A stretch of 64,000 nt of DNA, taken from Pseudovibrio exalbescens (GTDB lineage: Bacteria; Pseudomonadota; Alphaproteobacteria; Rhizobiales; Stappiaceae). How positions within the stretch are numbered: position 1 is the stretch's first letter; every line of letters starts with the position of its first letter. The notes beneath the pieces are model-generated. The model made no database searches. It saw only the letters and a program-made list of their open reading frames with translations, and was not told the DNA's origin. A program made the position numbers and the translations under genes. Where the stretch lies: NCBI RefSeq assembly GCF_028737195.1, contig NZ_JAQZAJ010000003.1, positions 248,001 through 312,000 of the forward strand, in the 5' to 3' direction. This document shows, piece by piece, positions 24,233 to 30,423 of this stretch.

Positions 24233-24293
24233 TGCCTTCGTCCTTGTCTGCGCCCTCTTTGGGGTGTTCCCGACTGGGTCTTGATTTAGCCAA

Positions 24294-24318
24294 TAAAAAA
24301 GGAGCCCTTAAGGCTCCT
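24294..24318 (-). terminator. Attenuator terminator ahead of ilvI
   Basis: On the - strand, GGAGCC TTAAG GGCTCC is followed by TTTTTT. It lies between the leader peptide and ilvI, not after a gene, which is the classical position of an attenuator terminator. Confidence 0.88.
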
Positions 24319-24337
24319 GCGCGCGTCTAACCGTTCC

Positions 24338-24355
24338 GAGTGACCTAACTCACTC
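24338..24355 (-). promoter_or_regulatory. Attenuator pause hairpin over the leader stop codon
   Basis: GAGTGA and TCACTC form a 6-bp stem with a 6-base loop that contains the leader peptide's stop codon. Flanking GCGCGTC / GACGCGC can pair across it. A ribosome at the leader stop would melt this stem, so it fits the 1:2 pause structure of amino acid attenuators. Confidence 0.65.
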
Positions 24356-24404
24356 CGGCGACGCGCTTTCCCACCACGATAAGAAGAATAGATGCGAGCT
24401 TCAT
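24345..24404 (-). CDS. ilvIH leader peptide (19 residues, ILLIVV)
   Basis: The frame encodes MKLASILLIVVGKRVAGVS. Six consecutive branched-chain residues (Ile-Leu-Leu-Ile-Val-Val) match the products of the pathway, as in known ilv leaders. It ends inside the pause hairpin and is followed about 27 bases later by the terminator stem. The ribosome binding site is not obvious (AATAAAA precedes the ATG), but the full arrangement leaves little doubt. Confidence 0.88.
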   Translation of the reverse strand: MKLASILLIVVGKRVAGVS

Positions 24405-24793: not shown

Positions 24794-24869
24794 GGGTGTA
24801 TAGCTCAGTTGGTAGAGCAGCTGACTCTTAATCAGCCGGTCCTGGGTTCGAATCCCCGTGCACCCACCA
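24794..24869 (+). tRNA. tRNA-Lys (anticodon CTT), first copy
   Basis: This 76-base cloverleaf includes an encoded CCA. The acceptor stem is GGGTGTA / TGCACCC, the D-arm AGCTCAGTTGGTAGAGC, the anticodon loop CTCTTAA with anticodon CTT, and the T-loop GGTTCGAATCC. It is identical base for base to the second copy 61 bases downstream. Confidence 0.97.
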
Positions 24870-24930: not shown

Positions 24931-25006
24931 GGGTGTATAGCTCAGTTGGTAGAGCAGCTGACTCTTAATCAGCCGGTCCTGGGTTCGAATCCCCGTGCAC
25001 CCACCA
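24931..25006 (+). tRNA. tRNA-Lys (anticodon CTT), second copy
   Basis: An exact 76-base repeat of the tRNA at 24794-24869, again with encoded CCA. The 61-base spacer between the copies is not repeated, so only the tRNA itself is duplicated. The two are probably one transcript. Confidence 0.97.
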
Positions 25007-25384
25007 CTTTCTTCCCCGAAAATATGTAGAACATGATCAGCGTCGAGCATTTGGTGTTTTGACCTCGTATCGTCCTGTAAAGGCCTTTGAGCTGGATACT
25101 CGCCATGACTGGTGTCAGGGCGACGGAGCTGGCATTTGGTGTGGAGGCGTTCACATCAGGGCGCATTTCGCGTTTTTTAGACTCATTATTTTGCCCTTTG
25201 GGCTCCTTTAATTGTTAAGGGGCGCTCAAGTTGGTTGTAGTGCCGCTCGACCTTCATCTCTAAGTTGTTCACATTTATTAATGCAACCTAAGATTGTCTT
25301 TGCGTGGTTATGGATCTGGCCGTTGCCGGTCTAATTGCTTGCTCTGCAACCGAAATTTCTTCCTAACATTCGCAGAATGCCTTT

Positions 25385-25413
25385 AGGTTGTATATTGTCT
25401 TTTTATACAACCT
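25385..25413. promoter_or_regulatory. Perfect 10-bp inverted repeat, candidate operator
   Basis: AGGTTGTATA and TATACAACCT are separated by 9 bases. A centre-to-centre distance of about two helical turns suits a dimeric DNA-binding protein; a hairpin in RNA is the alternative. It lies about 150 bp upstream of the sigma factor gene. Confidence 0.6.
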
Positions 25414-25467
25414 ATCAGAATTGGGTGTTTACCTGAAGTCTTTCGCAGTTAATTCTGTAATTTGCTA

Positions 25468-25498: not shown

Positions 25499-25561
25499 CA
25501 TGATTTCACGAATTAAGACATGCCTCGTCTAAGTTTATATCTTTCAGAATGGGGTGTTTTT

Positions 25562-26128
25562 ATGTCTTTATATTCCAAAAAATCGTCTCTGCCGATAGAA
25601 GAGGGCAGGGGAATGGACTATTTGTGGGCATGTTGGGTGGATTGTAAGCCTCTTCTCAAAGGTCGTGCCCTGAGGTTGACCAACGGAGATCATGATGCCG
25701 CAGAAGAGTTGTTGTCAGCAACGATTTTAAAAGCTGCGAACCACTTCAGCGGCAGGCCAGTAGAGCTGCGTGACCCGAAAGCCTTCTTCATGTTCGCTCT
25801 GAAGAACGAGTTCATCAGCCAGTATCGAAAGAAGCGCCACGAGTTCAAGCATCGCGATACCGAGTTGGATGTTCATGAGGACCGGGTTGCTCAGGGAGAT
25901 TGGGAGGCGCGTGGCCAGGAAAAGGAGCTGGTGACGCGCGAAGAGCTTACCCGTTTGCAAGGTGCTCTTACAGACCTGCCGCCAATCTATCGGGAGATTT
26001 TCTCGATGAAGTTTGTAGAGGAGCGGTCGTATCCCGAAATCTCAGAGGTCTTGGAGATCTCACAAGCTCTAGCTCGAAAACGGGTTCAGTTTTTGCGGCA
26101 GAAGTTGAGGGTCATTGTCGCGGATTAA
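25562..26128 (+). CDS. ECF-like sigma-70 family factor of the reb locus
   Basis: This 188-residue protein is built like an ECF sigma factor. Region 2 contains DAAEELLSATILKAANHF and DPKAFFMFALKNEFISQYRKK. A short variable linker follows, then a region 4 helix-turn-helix (LPPIYREIFSMKFVEERSYPEISEVL, then ISQALARKRVQFLRQKL). No anti-sigma gene is next to it. The start is taken as the ATG at 25562 (GGGGT upstream); the ATG at 25613 with AGGGGA close by is possible. It heads the reb cluster, in the same direction and 86 bp before the first reb gene, so it probably drives R-body expression. Sigma factors or regulators near reb genes are a reported pattern. Confidence 0.88.
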   Translation: MSLYSKKSSLPIEEGRGMDYLWACWVDCKPLLKGRALRLTNGDHDAAEELLSATILKAANHFSGRPVELRDPKAFFMFALKNEFISQYRKKRHEFKHRDTELDVHEDRVAQGDWEARGQEKELVTREELTRLQGALTDLPPIYREIFSMKFVEERSYPEISEVLEISQALARKRVQFLRQKLRVIVAD

Positions 26129-26214
26129 ACCGGAAGACGTGGGCGCGGCTTCACAGGCCTGTGAGGACCGCGTCCAACTGAATGGTTAACAATTCCAACA
26201 GCGAGGAACAACAG

Positions 26215-26442
26215 ATGGCAGATGAAACCGTAAACCCGCAAATAACCGATGCGGTGACGCAGACCAATGTGAAGGTCGTAGCAGAGTCGCCATCTCAGGC
26301 GATTGCAAGTCTTTATCAGGTGGTTAGCCATGCCACTGGTTTGTCTGTACAGAACGCGACGCACAGTCAGCAGGCAATGAATCAGATAACTGCGGCGGTC
26401 ATCTCCAAGGGTGTTCAGCTGATCATGGACATCAAAGGTTGA
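26215..26442 (+). CDS. RebB-type R-body protein (75 residues)
   Basis: This small protein has the Reb core: VNPQITDAVTQTNVKVVAESP, then QAIASLYQVVSHATGLSVQNATHSQQ. It lacks the C-terminal third seen in the two later Reb proteins of this locus, including their GVMQIYSMDT segment, and ends with GVQLIMDIKG. RebB-family proteins (Pfam killing trait) are the building blocks or assembly factors of R-bodies. The ATG at 26215 has GAGGAA upstream and aligns with the starts of the paralogues; the ATG at 26182 is therefore rejected. Confidence 0.88.
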   Translation: MADETVNPQITDAVTQTNVKVVAESPSQAIASLYQVVSHATGLSVQNATHSQQAMNQITAAVISKGVQLIMDIKG

Positions 26443-26470
26443 CACAGCAACCTGAGGGTGGGGCGCAAGG

Positions 26471-27397
26471 ATGCAGAGCGCAGAGCGGAGTCTGGGGCAT
26501 AACTCTTTCCTCAACGCGGCGGAAAGGCGAAAGCAACTCATTGCCGGGTTGATGAACAATGATGCAGGTGGGCATTCCATGCAGAACGGGGCTGGCGATG
26601 CTGGTGCTGAAAAGCCCAGTGCTGAAGATCTGATTTCCGAGATAGAAGAGCGCGCAAAGACCAACGGAATCTACTTGCCGGATGGTTTCTTGAGAAATCC
26701 TGAGGCAGTGCGTTTGGGTTCCGAAAGTCGTGCCAACGCAAATGGCGTAAATGGTGCATCTGCCTTGAACGGTGGCGGCAGTCACAAATCTCCTAGGCTC
26801 GCGTCTAATTCAGCAGTACCGGAGAGCTTACAGGTTAATGGCGCTGACAACGAGCCATCTGACGAAACTACTCCGAAGAGTAATGATGATGAAGCTTCGA
26901 GCTCACCTGCGCAGGCTGGAGGTCAAGGCGGTGGTGGAGGCGATGGAGGCAATGGAGGTGACGGCGACGGTTCATCACCGAAAGATGCGAAGGAAGACCC
27001 TATGCCAGGCAATGCGCTAACGACGACTTCAGCGCCGGACACATCCAAGCTCAACCAGCAGGTCGTTCAGGCCGTTCAGTTCACAAACTATGAGAACGCA
27101 AACTATCTGCCGGAGATGATTTCGGCTCCTGCTGAGGTGATGGCGACGCAGACCGCAGGCCATGCAACGCAGAATGCAGAAAGCTACATGAACGGCATCA
27201 TGCAGATTGCCGTAGCCGCCCAGGCCGTTGTTGCCGCCAAGATTGCCGAGAACCCGGCAGAAGCTTCAGTGGATGCTGAAGCTTTGACCCAGCTGCAAGC
27301 CATGGTGACTGCCGCGATCACTGCGTTTGGCGATGCGAGCACCACTGCTGGAACCGCAGCCAAGACAATCATTACGGATACCAAGGTGAGTAGCTAA
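26471..27397 (+). CDS. Large Reb-associated protein with Reb-like C-terminal domain
   Basis: This 308-residue protein has a helical N-terminus (1-85). A long low-complexity segment rich in Asn, Ser, Glu and Gly follows, with a Gly/Asp tract at about 150-168. The Ala-rich C-terminal part begins near residue 191. The segment LNQQVVQAVQFTNYENANYLP, then APAEVMATQTAGHATQNAE, resembles the Reb repeat pattern (xxAVxxTN, APAxxM, QNA). The ATG at 26471 has AAGG too close; the start may be elsewhere. It sits 28 bp after the first reb gene. It could be a structural, anchoring or targeting R-body component. The Reb-like call is by eye. Confidence 0.7.
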   Translation: MQSAERSLGHNSFLNAAERRKQLIAGLMNNDAGGHSMQNGAGDAGAEKPSAEDLISEIEERAKTNGIYLPDGFLRNPEAVRLGSESRANANGVNGASALNGGGSHKSPRLASNSAVPESLQVNGADNEPSDETTPKSNDDEASSSPAQAGGQGGGGGDGGNGGDGDGSSPKDAKEDPMPGNALTTTSAPDTSKLNQQVVQAVQFTNYENANYLPEMISAPAEVMATQTAGHATQNAESYMNGIMQIAVAAQAVVAAKIAENPAEASVDAEALTQLQAMVTAAITAFGDASTTAGTAAKTIITDTKVSS

Positions 27398-27423
27398 AGC
27401 CCGGTTGGATGGAGTGGACAGTC

Positions 27424-27621
27424 ATGGCGGACCAAACAAGTCAGGAAAACGCAACGCAAGGTGCGCCAGGCCAAACGCCACCTTCAGGCAGTACTGCCGA
27501 GAACAAGCTGTTTTCAGATGCGTTCATGACGGCCCTCAAGGCGGGCGTTCAGCTTTCAAAAAAGGAGCAGCTTCTCTTGTTCGTGATGCTGCAATACCTG
27601 CGCAAGCAGAGAGGCAACTAG
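27424..27621 (+). CDS. Small protein of the reb locus, 65 residues
   Basis: The N-terminal half is polar and Gln/Ser/Pro-rich. The C-terminal half is an amphipathic helix (AFMTALKAGVQLSKKEQLLL, then FVMLQYLRKQRGN). GGAG lies upstream of the ATG at 27424. The family is not recognised. Its position between the 308-residue Reb-like gene (27-bp gap) and the following small genes, all on the same strand, marks it as part of the reb transcript. It has no signal peptide and no enzyme motif. Confidence 0.65.
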   Translation: MADQTSQENATQGAPGQTPPSGSTAENKLFSDAFMTALKAGVQLSKKEQLLLFVMLQYLRKQRGN

Positions 27622-27653
27622 CGCTGTCCTGCCAACTCAATTGGAGAAAGCCC

Positions 27654-28049
27654 ATGGAGAGAGACATCAACTACATCCGAGAGGAGTTGGACGAGGTGAC
27701 GCTGACGCACCTGCGCCGCTGGATTGTTCTTCTTGAGGAGGCGCAAGGCAAGGAGCGCCCCTGTGAAATCCAGCACAACTCCCTGCCGGGATACCTAGCC
27801 TATCTCAACAGTGCCCGAAATGCGCTCTGCCGTGCCGAGGTTCTCGCCGGCTCCACGTTTGAGGAGACAGCAAGTGTCCGTGTGGAAGTGGATGAACGCG
27901 TCATGGATGAAGAGTTGATCACTGAAGAGGGTGAGATCGACGTCCATGAAGAGATTGTGGAAGAGTTTATCGAAAAGGAGAGGGTCTATGAGCGGTCAGG
28001 ACGATCCCGCGAGTGCGGTCGGGCAAGGGGAGAGCGCGGCCGGAGCTGA
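27654..28049 (+). CDS. Unknown 131-residue acidic protein of the reb locus
   Basis: The frame begins at an ATG with GGAG seven bases upstream. The N-terminal 75 residues look like a helical domain (DINYIREELDEVTLTHLRRW, then EEAQGKERPCEIQHN). Residues 80-120 are very acidic, with a Val/Glu-rich stretch around EELITEEGEIDVHEE. The C-terminus turns Arg/Gly-rich. The last 62 bases overlap the next gene in another frame, so the Arg-rich tail is probably a by-product of that overlap. No family is recognised; a role in R-body production is inferred only from position. Confidence 0.6.
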   Translation: MERDINYIREELDEVTLTHLRRWIVLLEEAQGKERPCEIQHNSLPGYLAYLNSARNALCRAEVLAGSTFEETASVRVEVDERVMDEELITEEGEIDVHEEIVEEFIEKERVYERSGRSRECGRARGERGRS

Positions 28050-28626
28050 TAACTCATCAGCCCAGCAGGCAAGTCAAACGCAACCCAACGAAGCGCCCGT
28101 GGATCAGGTTGCTGCGGCCCAGAAGCAGGTAGAACAGGCGCTACAGAATTTTCAGGCGCTCAAGCAGTCAATTCCCAATCTGAAGCAGGTCGTCGCTGAG
28201 ATGAAGCAGCAGCAGGTGGATGTTGAGCAGGCAAGCCAACACATCAGTTCAAGCGCCCAGGCGGTCATGCAAGAGGTAGATAGTGCGGTGAAGCAGATGA
28301 ATGCGACCGTGCAGGGCGAGGTAAACTCTATGCTTCACGGATTGCCGCAGGAGCCAAGTGCTCAGCCGGCCTCATCGCCGCAGGAGCAAAGCAGCTCAGC
28401 CTCTACGCCGCCACCTCAGACAAAGCAAGCGCAAGCTCAACCTGCTGCGACTGCGCAAGCCACCCAGACGATGGCAACCCAGCACCCGCAAACAGCGATT
28501 GCAAGTCAGGTGGCTGATGCGATGCGGCAGATTATCCGAAATGAGGTGCAGCAGGCTGTCTCGGAACAGATCGCCCCTCTGGCGGCAGAGATCAGTAAAA
28601 TTGTCTCAAGCTCTCGGTCTCGTTAA
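27988..28626 (+). CDS. Unknown 212-residue coiled-coil, Gln-rich protein of the reb locus
   Basis: The start at 27988 has AAGGAGAGG upstream, inside the end of the previous gene (62-bp overlap, different frame), so translation is likely coupled. Residues 45-125 form a long heptad-like helix (VEQALQNFQALKQSIPNLKQ and onward). A Gln/Ser/Pro/Ala-rich disordered linker follows at about 125-185, then a terminal helix (VADAMRQIIRNEVQQAVSEQ). The Gln/Ala composition resembles Reb proteins, but no Reb motif is clear. It could be a scaffold or chaperone-like component; the function is unknown. Confidence 0.65.
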   Translation: MSGQDDPASAVGQGESAAGADNSSAQQASQTQPNEAPVDQVAAAQKQVEQALQNFQALKQSIPNLKQVVAEMKQQQVDVEQASQHISSSAQAVMQEVDSAVKQMNATVQGEVNSMLHGLPQEPSAQPASSPQEQSSSASTPPPQTKQAQAQPAATAQATQTMATQHPQTAIASQVADAMRQIIRNEVQQAVSEQIAPLAAEISKIVSSSRSR

Positions 28627-28732
28627 GTATTAGAGGTGTTTTCAGGGTCTGAATTTGGTTTCACAAGAAAAAGAAAATTGCGTCTTAGTAGCTGTACACA
28701 ATTTGTACTGAATTCTCACAGGAGACAGATTT

Positions 28733-29053
28733 ATGGCAGATCCAACTACTGTAAGCCCAATGGTTACAGATGCAGTAACACAGTCGAACGTGAAGGTTAT
28801 TGCAGAAGCGCCAGCAATGGCCATGGGCAGTATCTTTCAGACCATGTCGCACTCAACCGGCATCTTGTTTGAGAATGCGGTGTCGGCTGCACAGCAGCAG
28901 ACCACTCTGTCTCAAGCCGCGTCTAACCAGGGTGTCATGCAGATCTACTCAATGGACACCATGGCGGGTGCCGGTGCCACTGAGAAGGTGGCACAGAGCG
29001 GTGAAGCTGACAACCTGACCACGCTGCTGACCGTACTGCAGTCTTTTACCTAA
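28733..29053 (+). CDS. RebB-type R-body protein (106 residues)
   Basis: This is a full-length RebB-family protein. The pattern runs VSPMVTDAVTQSNVKVIAEAP, AMAMGSIFQTMSHSTGILFEN, AVSAAQQQ and GVMQIYSMDTM. This is the Reb core, in which small hydrophobic helices assemble into the R-body ribbon in Caedibacter. AGGAGA lies eight bases before the ATG. The 106-bp gap after the previous gene contains GTACA(N5)TGTAC, which could be part of a separate promoter for the last two genes. About 88% identical by eye to the next gene. Confidence 0.93.
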   Translation: MADPTTVSPMVTDAVTQSNVKVIAEAPAMAMGSIFQTMSHSTGILFENAVSAAQQQTTLSQAASNQGVMQIYSMDTMAGAGATEKVAQSGEADNLTTLLTVLQSFT

Positions 29054-29171
29054 TACCTGACATTCGGGCTTTAGAGCTCATCTATCTGGCCTCGGCAATC
29101 AGTCTCTAGTTGTGTTTCAATGCCGTAACTGCCGGGCGCCACCCTTGATTATCACTGAGGAGACCTAAGAA

Positions 29172-29504
29172 ATGGCAGATCCAACAACCGTGAACCCGAT
29201 GATCACCGACGCTGTGACACAGTCCAACGTCAAGGTGGTCGGTGAGGCCCCGGCAATGGCCATGGGCAGCTTGTTCCAGAGCATGGCACACTCAACCGGT
29301 ATCCTGTTTGAGAACGCTGTATCTGCTGCACAGCAGCAGAACACCCTTTCTCAAGCTGCAACCAACCAGGGTGTTATGCAGATCTATTCCATGGATACCA
29401 TGGCTGGTGCAGGCGCAACCGAGAAAGTGGCTCAAAGCGGTACCGCAGACAATCTGACAACCATGCTGACCGTTCTGCAGGCACTGGGCAACACTGGCCG
29501 ATAA
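29172..29504 (+). CDS. RebB-type R-body protein (110 residues), near-duplicate
   Basis: This protein is almost the same as the one at 28733. Only about a dozen of 104 aligned residues differ (for example VNPMITDAVTQ against VSPMVTDAVTQ), plus a four- to six-residue extension (GNTGR). It has its own strong GGAGA ribosome binding site. A recent tandem duplication is likely. In known R-body systems several Reb paralogues are needed together, so the pair may be functionally distinct. A terminator follows and closes the reb transcript. Confidence 0.93.
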   Translation: MADPTTVNPMITDAVTQSNVKVVGEAPAMAMGSLFQSMAHSTGILFENAVSAAQQQNTLSQAATNQGVMQIYSMDTMAGAGATEKVAQSGTADNLTTMLTVLQALGNTGR

Positions 29505-29525
29505 GCTTGCATCATGAGAACCTAG

Positions 29526-29560
29526 AAAGTGCTGTCATTGTCGGCAGCACTTTTCTTTTG
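29526..29560 (+). terminator. Rho-independent terminator of the reb locus
   Basis: A 9-bp stem (AAAGTGCTG against CAGCACTTT) with a 10-base loop runs into TTTTCTTTT, 21 bases after the last reb stop. Confidence 0.87.
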
Positions 29561-29637: not shown

Positions 29638-30423
29638 ATGCCCCAAGTTCTTGTTGTCGCCCTCTATAAATTTGTTCCCTTTGAAGACTTCGAAAGTCAC
29701 AGGGAGCCCCTTCTGGAGTTCTGCAAAGCACGCGATATTCGCGGCAGCTTGCTGATTGCTAAAGAGGGCATGAACGGAACTGTGGCAGGCGAGGAGAAAC
29801 ACGTTCGGGACCTTTTGGACCATATAAAAAGCGATCCCCGCTTTGCCGATTTGACGCACAAAGAGTCTTGGGCTGAGCGTATTCCTTTCCGCCGTATGAA
29901 GGTCCGCTTGAAGAAAGAGATCGTCAATATGGGCCTCCCGACGATCGATCCACGGCAAACGGTGGGCACCTATGTGAAACCGGAGGATTGGAACGCGCTG
30001 ATCAGTGATCCGGATGTTGTCGTTATTGATACCCGGAATGATTACGAAGTGGCGATGGGTACATTCGAGCGTGCCATTGATCCGGAAACGGAAACCTTCA
30101 AAGAGTTTCCGGATTGGGTCAAAGAACATGGTGAACTGAAGCAAGCCAAGAAAGTAGCGATGTTCTGCACCGGCGGTATACGCTGCGAAAAGGCGACAGC
30201 CCTCATGCTGGAAGAGGGGTATGACGAGGTTTACCACTTGGAAGGTGGCATTCTGAACTATCTGGAAAAAGTGCCTGAGGAACAGAGCCTCTGGAAGGGA
30301 GAGTGTTTTGTATTCGATGACCGCGTATCAGTTGATCATGCCTTGAAGCCAGTTTGGGGCAAGAACGTGCCAGAAAAGACGCGAAAGATCCTTGCTGACT
30401 ACATGATCAACGACGACGATTGA
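29638..30423 (+). CDS. trhO: tRNA uridine-34 hydroxylase TrhO (rhodanese-like)
   Basis: This 261-residue protein is of the YceA/TrhO family. An N-terminal acylphosphatase-like domain ([27 protein letters not shown]) is followed by a rhodanese domain with the active cysteine Cys177 in [10 protein letters not shown]. TrhO hydroxylates U34 of certain tRNAs to 5-hydroxyuridine with molecular oxygen, the first step toward cmo5U/mo5U. It stands alone after the reb terminator. It starts at an ATG without a strong ribosome binding site, but the start agrees with the family. Confidence 0.93.

Follow-up and report, generated by a model that had tools for sequence, protein, structure and literature searches.

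R-bodies are refractile, coiled protein ribbons that can spring open. Few protein machines unroll on cue in this way, and the switching of their genes is known for a few species only. Here, we analyzed an R-body (reb) locus in a 64 kb window from Pseudovibrio exalbescens (contig NZ_JAQZAJ010000003.1, positions 248,001 to 312,000; "the window" means this whole stretch, and coordinates refer to it unless a locus handle precedes them). The excerpts of the literature used here describe several related systems. In Labrenzia (Roseibium) alexandrii DFL-11T, a cluster of an extracytoplasmic function (ECF) sigma factor gene, a reb gene, four hypothetical genes and two reb genes was reported in 2013, with Reb lengths of 122, 109 and 76 amino acids (aa), the order of which is not matched to the map; R-bodies were visible by electron microscopy, and orthologous arrangements were found in Roseibium sp. 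TrichSKD4 and Polymorphum gilvum (PMC3764935). Group 2 of reb synteny, also from 2013, comprises the sigma factor HP2.3 and the proteins HP2.1 and HP2.2 of ~205-220 aa, all confined to reb-bearing taxa (HP2.3 as a subfamily), and a Crp-like protein, HP2.4, that is frequent but not universal (PMC3583457). The cluster of Pseudomonas aeruginosa PA14 contains rebD, rebP1, rebP2, rapA, rcgA and fecI2; the activity of the rebP1 promoter depends on its sigma factor, RapA was found in association with RebP1, and the genes are expressed in 0.26% of the cells (PMC8322103). A FecI2 motif was derived in PMC4362757. The reb operon of Azorhizobium caulinodans is under the activator RebR (Crp/Fnr) and a repressor, PraR, which is dominant (PMC5527310). 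A survey from 2026 deliberately set aside the non-Reb neighbors (PMC13430693).

The cluster of the window is like that of L. alexandrii, in which ribbons were seen, in gene order. It is a Group 2, i.e. sigma-containing, reb cluster and shares the cluster-specific sigma factor, but no Crp-like regulator of the HP2.4 kind lies among or beside its genes. We consider it highly likely that this sigma factor recognizes the sequence TTCACA-N15-GCGTC, that it autoregulates here, and that it drives two operons for a Reb ribbon and its accessory assembly proteins. In the mechanism that we infer, the sigma factor would raise its own transcription from a box before its gene, and this positive feedback would result in an all-or-none switch. 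The two operons turned on would be the short reb gene together with the genes for proteins of 308, 65, 131 and 212 aa, and the pair of structural reb genes. The two similar structural Rebs would polymerize into a coiled ribbon, which the Reb-like 308-aa protein would cap or associate with, and the coiled-coil 212-aa protein and the small 131-aa and 65-aa proteins would act in assembly or loading. The ribbon would then unroll in response to a cue, probably one like the low pH of a predator vacuole, and the cell would break open.

Visual inspection of nine loci of the Pseudovibrio group first revealed the promoter motif, upstream of the first structural reb gene, and these nine are not independent of its discovery; the upstream regions of the short reb and sigma genes, the other genera, and the loci outside the family are independent of it. 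RebB genes are present in 40 of 87 genomes of the host's family, and 39 of these loci (the window and 38 relatives; the reb-bearing genome G024 was left out) were mapped, 37 of which have the sigma gene. The pattern TCAC-N14..17-CGTC precedes the first structural reb gene in all 37 sigma-bearing loci including the window (dinucleotide shuffles: mean 0.12, maximum 2). For the short reb gene, 25 of 37 loci have it within 100 bp upstream (mean 0.15, maximum 2), and for the sigma gene, 23 of 37 have it upstream (mean 0.44, maximum 3). The values for later structural reb genes are 6/35 for the second, 0/11 for the third, and 2/10 for the fourth.

The spacing between TCAC and CGTC is exactly 16 in 85 of the 89 sites with enough flank and 17 in the other four, and the consensus is TTCACA-N15-GCGTC. 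Sites with the exact spacing stand before the short reb gene in 37/37 loci (at 33-127 nt), before the first structural reb gene in 33/37 (at 45-85 nt; 37/37 if one additional base is allowed), and at the sigma gene in 24/37, where one locus has its site within the gene, 50 nt past the assigned start. None was found within 160 nt upstream of the 308-, 131- or 212-aa genes in the 37 family loci. Over the whole clusters of these loci, the gene strand has 121 sites at spacing 16 and 1-3 at each of the spacings 10-15 and 17-20; the opposite strand has 8 sites at spacing 16 and 0-16 at the others. Further peaks at spacings 9 (9 sites) and 21 (24 sites) are probably due to reb coding sequence. The complete window contains four TCAC-N16-CGTC sites, all on the + strand and within 3.2 kb of the locus, three of which precede genes. 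Their count is ordinary (shuffle mean 2.04; at least four in 13 of 100 shuffles), but their placement is unusual.

The three sites that precede genes are TTCACG-N15-TCGTC at 25505-25529, before the sigma gene, and TTCACA-N15-GCGTC at 26150-26174 and 28660-28684, before the short and the first structural reb gene, respectively. From this placement three units are predicted, i.e. sigma, short reb-308-65-131-212 and reb-reb, and they are more likely than the single transcript that had been expected in the first-pass annotation of this DNA. Its proposal that the whole cluster acts as one system is supported by the common promoter code.

Outside the host's family, ten clusters with such a sigma factor contain 34 sites of exact spacing, at least one per cluster. 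These are three from Inquilinus limosus, one each from Luteimonas aquatica and Xanthomonas sp. GPE 39, and L075, L079, L081, L086, and L087, the last three being genomes of one genus. Only two sites were found in 17 clusters grouped as having no such sigma factor, one in L071 (an N16 site, with no sigma gene in the stretch covered) and one in L074 (a contig of 3.5 kb). Four plasmid records were added afterwards. In Ruegeria pomeroyi, three sites are located 37-39 nt upstream of the short reb gene, the 131-aa family gene, and the first structural reb gene. A single exact-spacing site, before the first structural reb gene, is found in Burkholderia pyrrocinia, the sigma factor of which is related (E 6e-39). 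No exact-spacing site is present on the reb strand of Azospirillum argentinense and Eleftheria terrae, which have no sigma gene in the stretch examined.

Several observations weigh against the proposed control by the sigma factor or against its generality. Of the 37 loci, 13 have no box at the assigned start of the sigma gene, and 12 of these 13 belong to the Pseudovibrio group; only two of the 14 loci of this group have it, i.e. the window and L045, its nearest relative in the alignments, so that autoregulation is not general in the window's genus. Related genomes are not independent of one another, and the shuffles ignore kinship. A tight motif pattern had 14 matches in the host's genome, as did a reversed-pattern control, and because there is no excess, the boxes alone do not predict targets. 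The group without such a sigma factor is not a clean negative, since four of its members (L073, L078, L080, and L082) have a sigma-like gene that is divergent and runs in the opposite orientation (E 1e-19 to 1e-24), as well as boxes that are one base wider (N17). Six N17 sites lie within these four clusters (by hand count, five are 45-66 nt before longest-ORF reb starts, where ORF is open reading frame, and the sixth is inside a longest-start ORF), and eight in the 17-cluster group. The sigma match of R. pomeroyi (E 1e-24) is no better than those of these four loci. B. pyrrocinia has no exact-spacing site before the sigma or the short reb gene, and R. pomeroyi and L075 have no match to the 212-aa profile (E 4 and 0.64, respectively) despite a gene of similar size in place.

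A regulon beyond the cluster was considered, but the genome-wide matches were rejected as evidence for it. Two of the 14 genome-wide matches are in the reb locus, and 7 of the other 12 were inspected. A perfect box at L126:1141 (C21:255640 of the host's genome) lies ~25-35 nt before an ORF of 214 aa with a secreted-protein-like start, and another box lies 114 nt before an ORF of 235 aa. Neither has further support, and the 19 sites listed for G018, the nearest relative genome, include none with a comparable spacer.

The leading gene had been described as ECF-like, in agreement with the match of its product to the NCBIfam model sigma70-ECF TIGR02937 (74.5 bits; cut-off 42.9). The value for Sigma70_r4_2 is 43.7 bits (cut-off 25.7), and that for Sigma70_r2, 23.5 bits, is slightly below the cut-off of 24. 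The gene spans 25562-26128 (188 aa) within a listed ORF of 25520-26128, with 25613 (171 aa) as a possible alternative start. In the genome searches with the sigma, 131-aa and 212-aa profiles, a capped number of first-look candidates was scored in each search. The sigma profile is bimodal over the 87 family genomes, with 265-317 bits in 38, every one of which has reb genes; at least 265 bits are thus reached in 38 of the 40 reb-bearing genomes and 0 of the 47 others, in which the best match has 43.4 bits. Genome G058 has a further reb-type sigma factor (185.7 bits) at G058:C16:88-627, on a contig other than that of the cluster, and this is the only second full-length high-scoring copy among the matches listed.

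The 131-aa family is present in 35 of the 87 genomes and the 212-aa family in 38, all with reb genes (35/40 and 38/40, respectively), and both are found in 0 of the 47 genomes without them. Among 385 genomes of the class, including that of the host, RebB is found in 15 and the 212-aa family in three, all three with reb genes. Of the 39 mapped loci, 34 have the arrangement sigma - short reb - 308 - 131 - 212 - two to four reb. The halves of the cluster have opposite directions in L057 and L067, no 131-aa gene was detected in L059, and L033 and L034 have reb genes only. The 308-aa and 212-aa genes are each present in 37/39 loci, and the 131-aa gene in 34/39 at the profile cut-off used. Conservation of the neighbors together with reb genes, the lack of which would have spoken against the first-pass annotation, is observed. 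A rhodanese-like gene (29638-30423 in the window) accompanies the cluster in the fetched stretch of 35/39 loci, which suggests that the cluster was inherited in place within the family.

An ORF reading of the window placed all cluster genes on the + strand, with frames, directions and sizes as described before. The short RebB-family gene, RebD-like by length and place, spans 26215-26442 (75 aa); its listed ORF begins at 26182, but the ATG at 26215 is most likely the start because the promoter box ends at 26174. The structural RebB-family genes are at 28733-29053 (106 aa) and 29172-29504 (110 aa) and are followed by the predicted closing terminator, a hairpin of 12 pairs at 29525-29554 (+) with a T-rich tail after it.

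A search with the Pfam model RebB (PF11747) had been set beforehand as the test of the three small RebB-family proteins. All of them score far above the curated cut-off of 24, with 90-103 bits and E-values of 1.1e-25 (short Reb), 1.3e-26 (106 aa) and 1.2e-29 (110 aa), and they are the only RebB matches in the host's 4.39 Mb genome. The two structural Rebs share 88% identity over 104 aa, the short and the last Reb 51% over 70 aa, and the 110-aa Reb and a homologue in L052 84% over 104 aa. The last Reb has matches in 17 plasmid records. Matches of Reb to pentatricopeptide-repeat sequences in PDB (residues 84-110, best E 1.8e-5) were rejected as spurious, as no stretch passed alone.

The 308-aa protein (26471-27397) has a long low-complexity N-terminus and the Reb-like C-terminal core noted in the first-pass annotation. 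This likeness was upheld in part. The protein has zero matches in Pfam, the C-terminus included, but hhalign aligned the core with the short-Reb profile at E 2.6e-4 (probability 42%, score 31.5), compared with scores of 6-14 for seven shuffled or unrelated control profiles (shuffled E 0.43). For the structural-Reb profile, the values are E 0.018, probability 2.6% and score 21.2 (controls 7-14). Judged from these alignments, the protein is probably a distant Reb relative at most, and by description alone it fits the S4/RapA (HP2.1) class. It has zero matches among the plasmid records. Luteimonas aquatica encodes a 545-aa RapA-like protein (L097:4735-6372) with a very long Pro-Ser-Ser repeat in its middle. 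The fourth TCAC-N16-CGTC site of the window (26782-26805) lies inside the 308-aa gene, and some relatives have sites elsewhere in this gene; it is possible that it marks a putative internal promoter.

The frames of all three further small proteins, of 65, 131, and 212 aa, are present as annotated. The 131-aa gene (27654-28049) and the 212-aa gene (27988-28626) overlap by 62 bp. For the 131-aa protein, AlphaFold2 predicted a two-helix hairpin (residues 2-32 and 41-86) and a low-confidence, charged and apparently disordered tail; the predicted local distance difference test (pLDDT) is 77-95 in ten-residue blocks over residues 1-70. The model has no usable counterpart among the PDB folds (best E 4.3). 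The homologues of L040, L051, L056, L058, L062, L063, and L064 have cysteine clusters in the tail (CCPCC, CPCC, CCCC), absent from the window's protein, that possibly form a metal site. The model of the 212-aa coiled-coil protein has three predicted helices (38-61, 65-118, and 167-211) and a low overall confidence (mean pLDDT 68, predicted template modeling score 0.32). By its size within ~205-220 aa, its exclusivity and its cross-class spread, compared by description, this protein is probably HP2.2 of PMC3583457. Iterated profiles also found the 212-aa family in the clusters of Inquilinus, Xanthomonas, Luteimonas, L079, and L081/L086/L087, and the 131-aa family in Inquilinus, L075, and L079; R. 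pomeroyi has the 131-aa family, too. As far as they are named or placed, all clusters with the 131-aa family are alphaproteobacterial, including Inquilinus, which we take to belong there. A Reb homology of the 131- and 212-aa proteins was rejected, as their hhalign values (E 0.26-0.83) resemble those of controls.

The 65-aa protein (27424-27621; 70 aa if the start is at 27409) has a low-complexity N-terminus and a short hydrophobic and basic C-terminal segment. By simple sequence search its gene is found in 2/39 loci; by our own reading, the slot between the 308- and 131-aa genes holds small positional equivalents in 26 of 34 loci, and these share the C-terminal segment. The leave-one-out set comprised 21 of the 26 (four close relatives and the repeat-bearing L050 were excluded), several of the 21 being close relatives; profiles recovered 15/21 at E<1e-3 and 20/21 at E<0.1. 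L053 fails (E 16, rank 44), and all others held out rank 2-7 among 3,075 ORFs. The gap in L050 encodes an 87-aa protein in which the conserved C-terminal motif apparently occurs twice. In five loci no gene was found in the slot (gap 89-93 bp).

Large proteins occupy the slot at L104:3396-5096, L111:6387-8279, L040:6640-8120, and L131:3664-5055, all with zero matches in Pfam. The first three, from two Inquilinus limosus genomes and L040, are a family of 493-630 aa (E 2e-38 or better), and that of R. pomeroyi (L131) is unrelated. One could imagine the slot as an exchangeable site whose genes encode cargo or adaptors of R-bodies and share one conserved sigma code, with the sigma factor as the on-switch of a loadable ribbon; we regard this as a speculation that is quite unlikely to be correct.

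Upstream of the sigma gene, an inverted repeat, TAGGTTGTATA-N9-TATACAACCTA, spans 25384-25414, a putative operator, which may bind a repressor of the sigma gene. The sigma factor would then be only part of the control and this repressor the real switch, like PraR in Azorhizobium, where PraR represses reb dominantly. Of the 37 loci, 13 have a repeat of the form GTTG-N10..20-CAAC before the sigma gene, compared with a mean of 2.3 and a maximum of 8 in shuffles; the 13 include 12 of the 14 Pseudovibrio-group loci, and in L045 both arms have changed compatibly compared with the window (GTTGCATA...TATGCAAC), which favors this alternative. On the other side, the reb genes have promoter boxes of their own, and the repeat differs from the published PraR consensus CAAC-N5-GTTG, for which the best match in the window, CAACCTAAGATTG, has one mismatch and exact sites occur in 2/37 loci. 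True PraR sites of A. caulinodans also deviate from the consensus, so that the mismatch is weak evidence against control by PraR. We consider a repressor as the real switch rather unlikely, and prefer the sigma factor in this role.

An alternative for the product is that the Reb polymer has a function in storage within the cell, in stress survival or in relation to phages, instead of lysis or the killing of predators or hosts. This would be compatible with wild-type A. caulinodans, in which R-bodies appear only with added 2-oxoglutarate at 26 C (PMC5527310) and their significance in symbiosis is called unclear (PMC8322103). However, damage to paramecia, nematodes, and plant cells has been reported (PMC8322103, PMC5527310), and the 308-, 65-, 131-, and 212-aa proteins have no convincing match in PHROGs, only coiled-coil noise (e.g. 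E 0.0016 and 0.0024 for the 212-aa protein), so that we regard this alternative as unlikely and retain a ribbon that unrolls as the probable product. A role of the 65-, 131-, and 212-aa proteins as cargo, either toxins or effectors, instead of in assembly is very unlikely: the 131- and 212-aa families are indeed confined to reb-bearing genomes of the family and diverge faster than the Rebs (60% and 48% identity to L045 compared with 92-96%), but the predicted helical hairpin, coiled coil and disordered stretches, the 131-aa model without a usable PDB match, and the occurrence of the 212-aa family also in Luteimonas and Xanthomonas clusters argue against it.

Just upstream of the locus lie tandem tRNA genes (24794-24866 and 24931-25003; Rfam tRNA, 68.8 bits each). 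The CTCTTAATC in the anticodon arm of the repeated sequence suggests tRNA-Lys. A match to the Rhizobiales small RNA Atu_C8 at 24285-24402 (- strand) is below threshold (39.2 bits compared with a gathering value of 50, E 2e-5); the gene downstream of it is presumably acetolactate-synthase-like.

Comparison with the described systems shows what is shared and what differs. The A. caulinodans operon resembles that of the window in its Reb proteins and tight control, but no sigma factor is named for it in the excerpts used. PA14 shares, by description, the short Reb, two long Rebs, the Reb-associated protein and the required sigma factor; it additionally needs the regulator RcgA. The megaplasmid of R. 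pomeroyi DSS-3 encodes sigma - RebB - 270-aa - ... - 100-aa - 207-aa - RebB - RebB, with promoter boxes as in the window; its 270-aa and 100-aa proteins belong to the 308-aa (E 6.5e-37) and 131-aa (E 2.6e-8) families. It differs from the window in a gene of 463 aa in place of the 65-aa one and in a Crp/Fnr gene before the sigma gene. The product of the latter has no clear counterpart in the 87 family genomes, where its best match is one of 55 bits at 25% identity (host's own genome: E 2.4e-4). The family thus seems, as far as these searches indicate, to run a PA14-like plan without the Crp/Fnr partner.

The kind of R-body cluster and its gene order are already known. The first-pass annotation had proposed the locus as the best candidate for an undescribed system in the window, a view that is superseded by the gene order and ribbons published for L. 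alexandrii (PMC3764935) and by the Group 2 class (PMC3583457). The excerpt on L. alexandrii contains no promoter code, no wider conservation of the hypothetical genes and no Reb-like core, and that on Group 2 does not name the 131- and 65-aa genes. No paper describing the TTCACA-N15-GCGTC code was found in the open-licence literature; the FecI2 motif of PMC4362757 could be the same. The code is common to sigma-bearing clusters in several proteobacterial lineages, offering a testable model of control; it helps to mark the neighboring genes that belong to the regulon and is a possible route to switch on ribbon production in marine strains that are harmless, e.g. R. pomeroyi. As they occur exclusively together with reb genes, the 131- and 212-aa families are two concrete candidates for assembly factors. 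In comparison with the known systems, the new observations are thus the restriction of the high-scoring sigma factor and of the 131- and 212-aa families to the reb-bearing genomes of the host's family, the lack of a clear counterpart there of the Crp/Fnr regulator known from other clusters, and a promoter motif that ties the cluster's sigma factor to reb genes in related and some distant bacteria.

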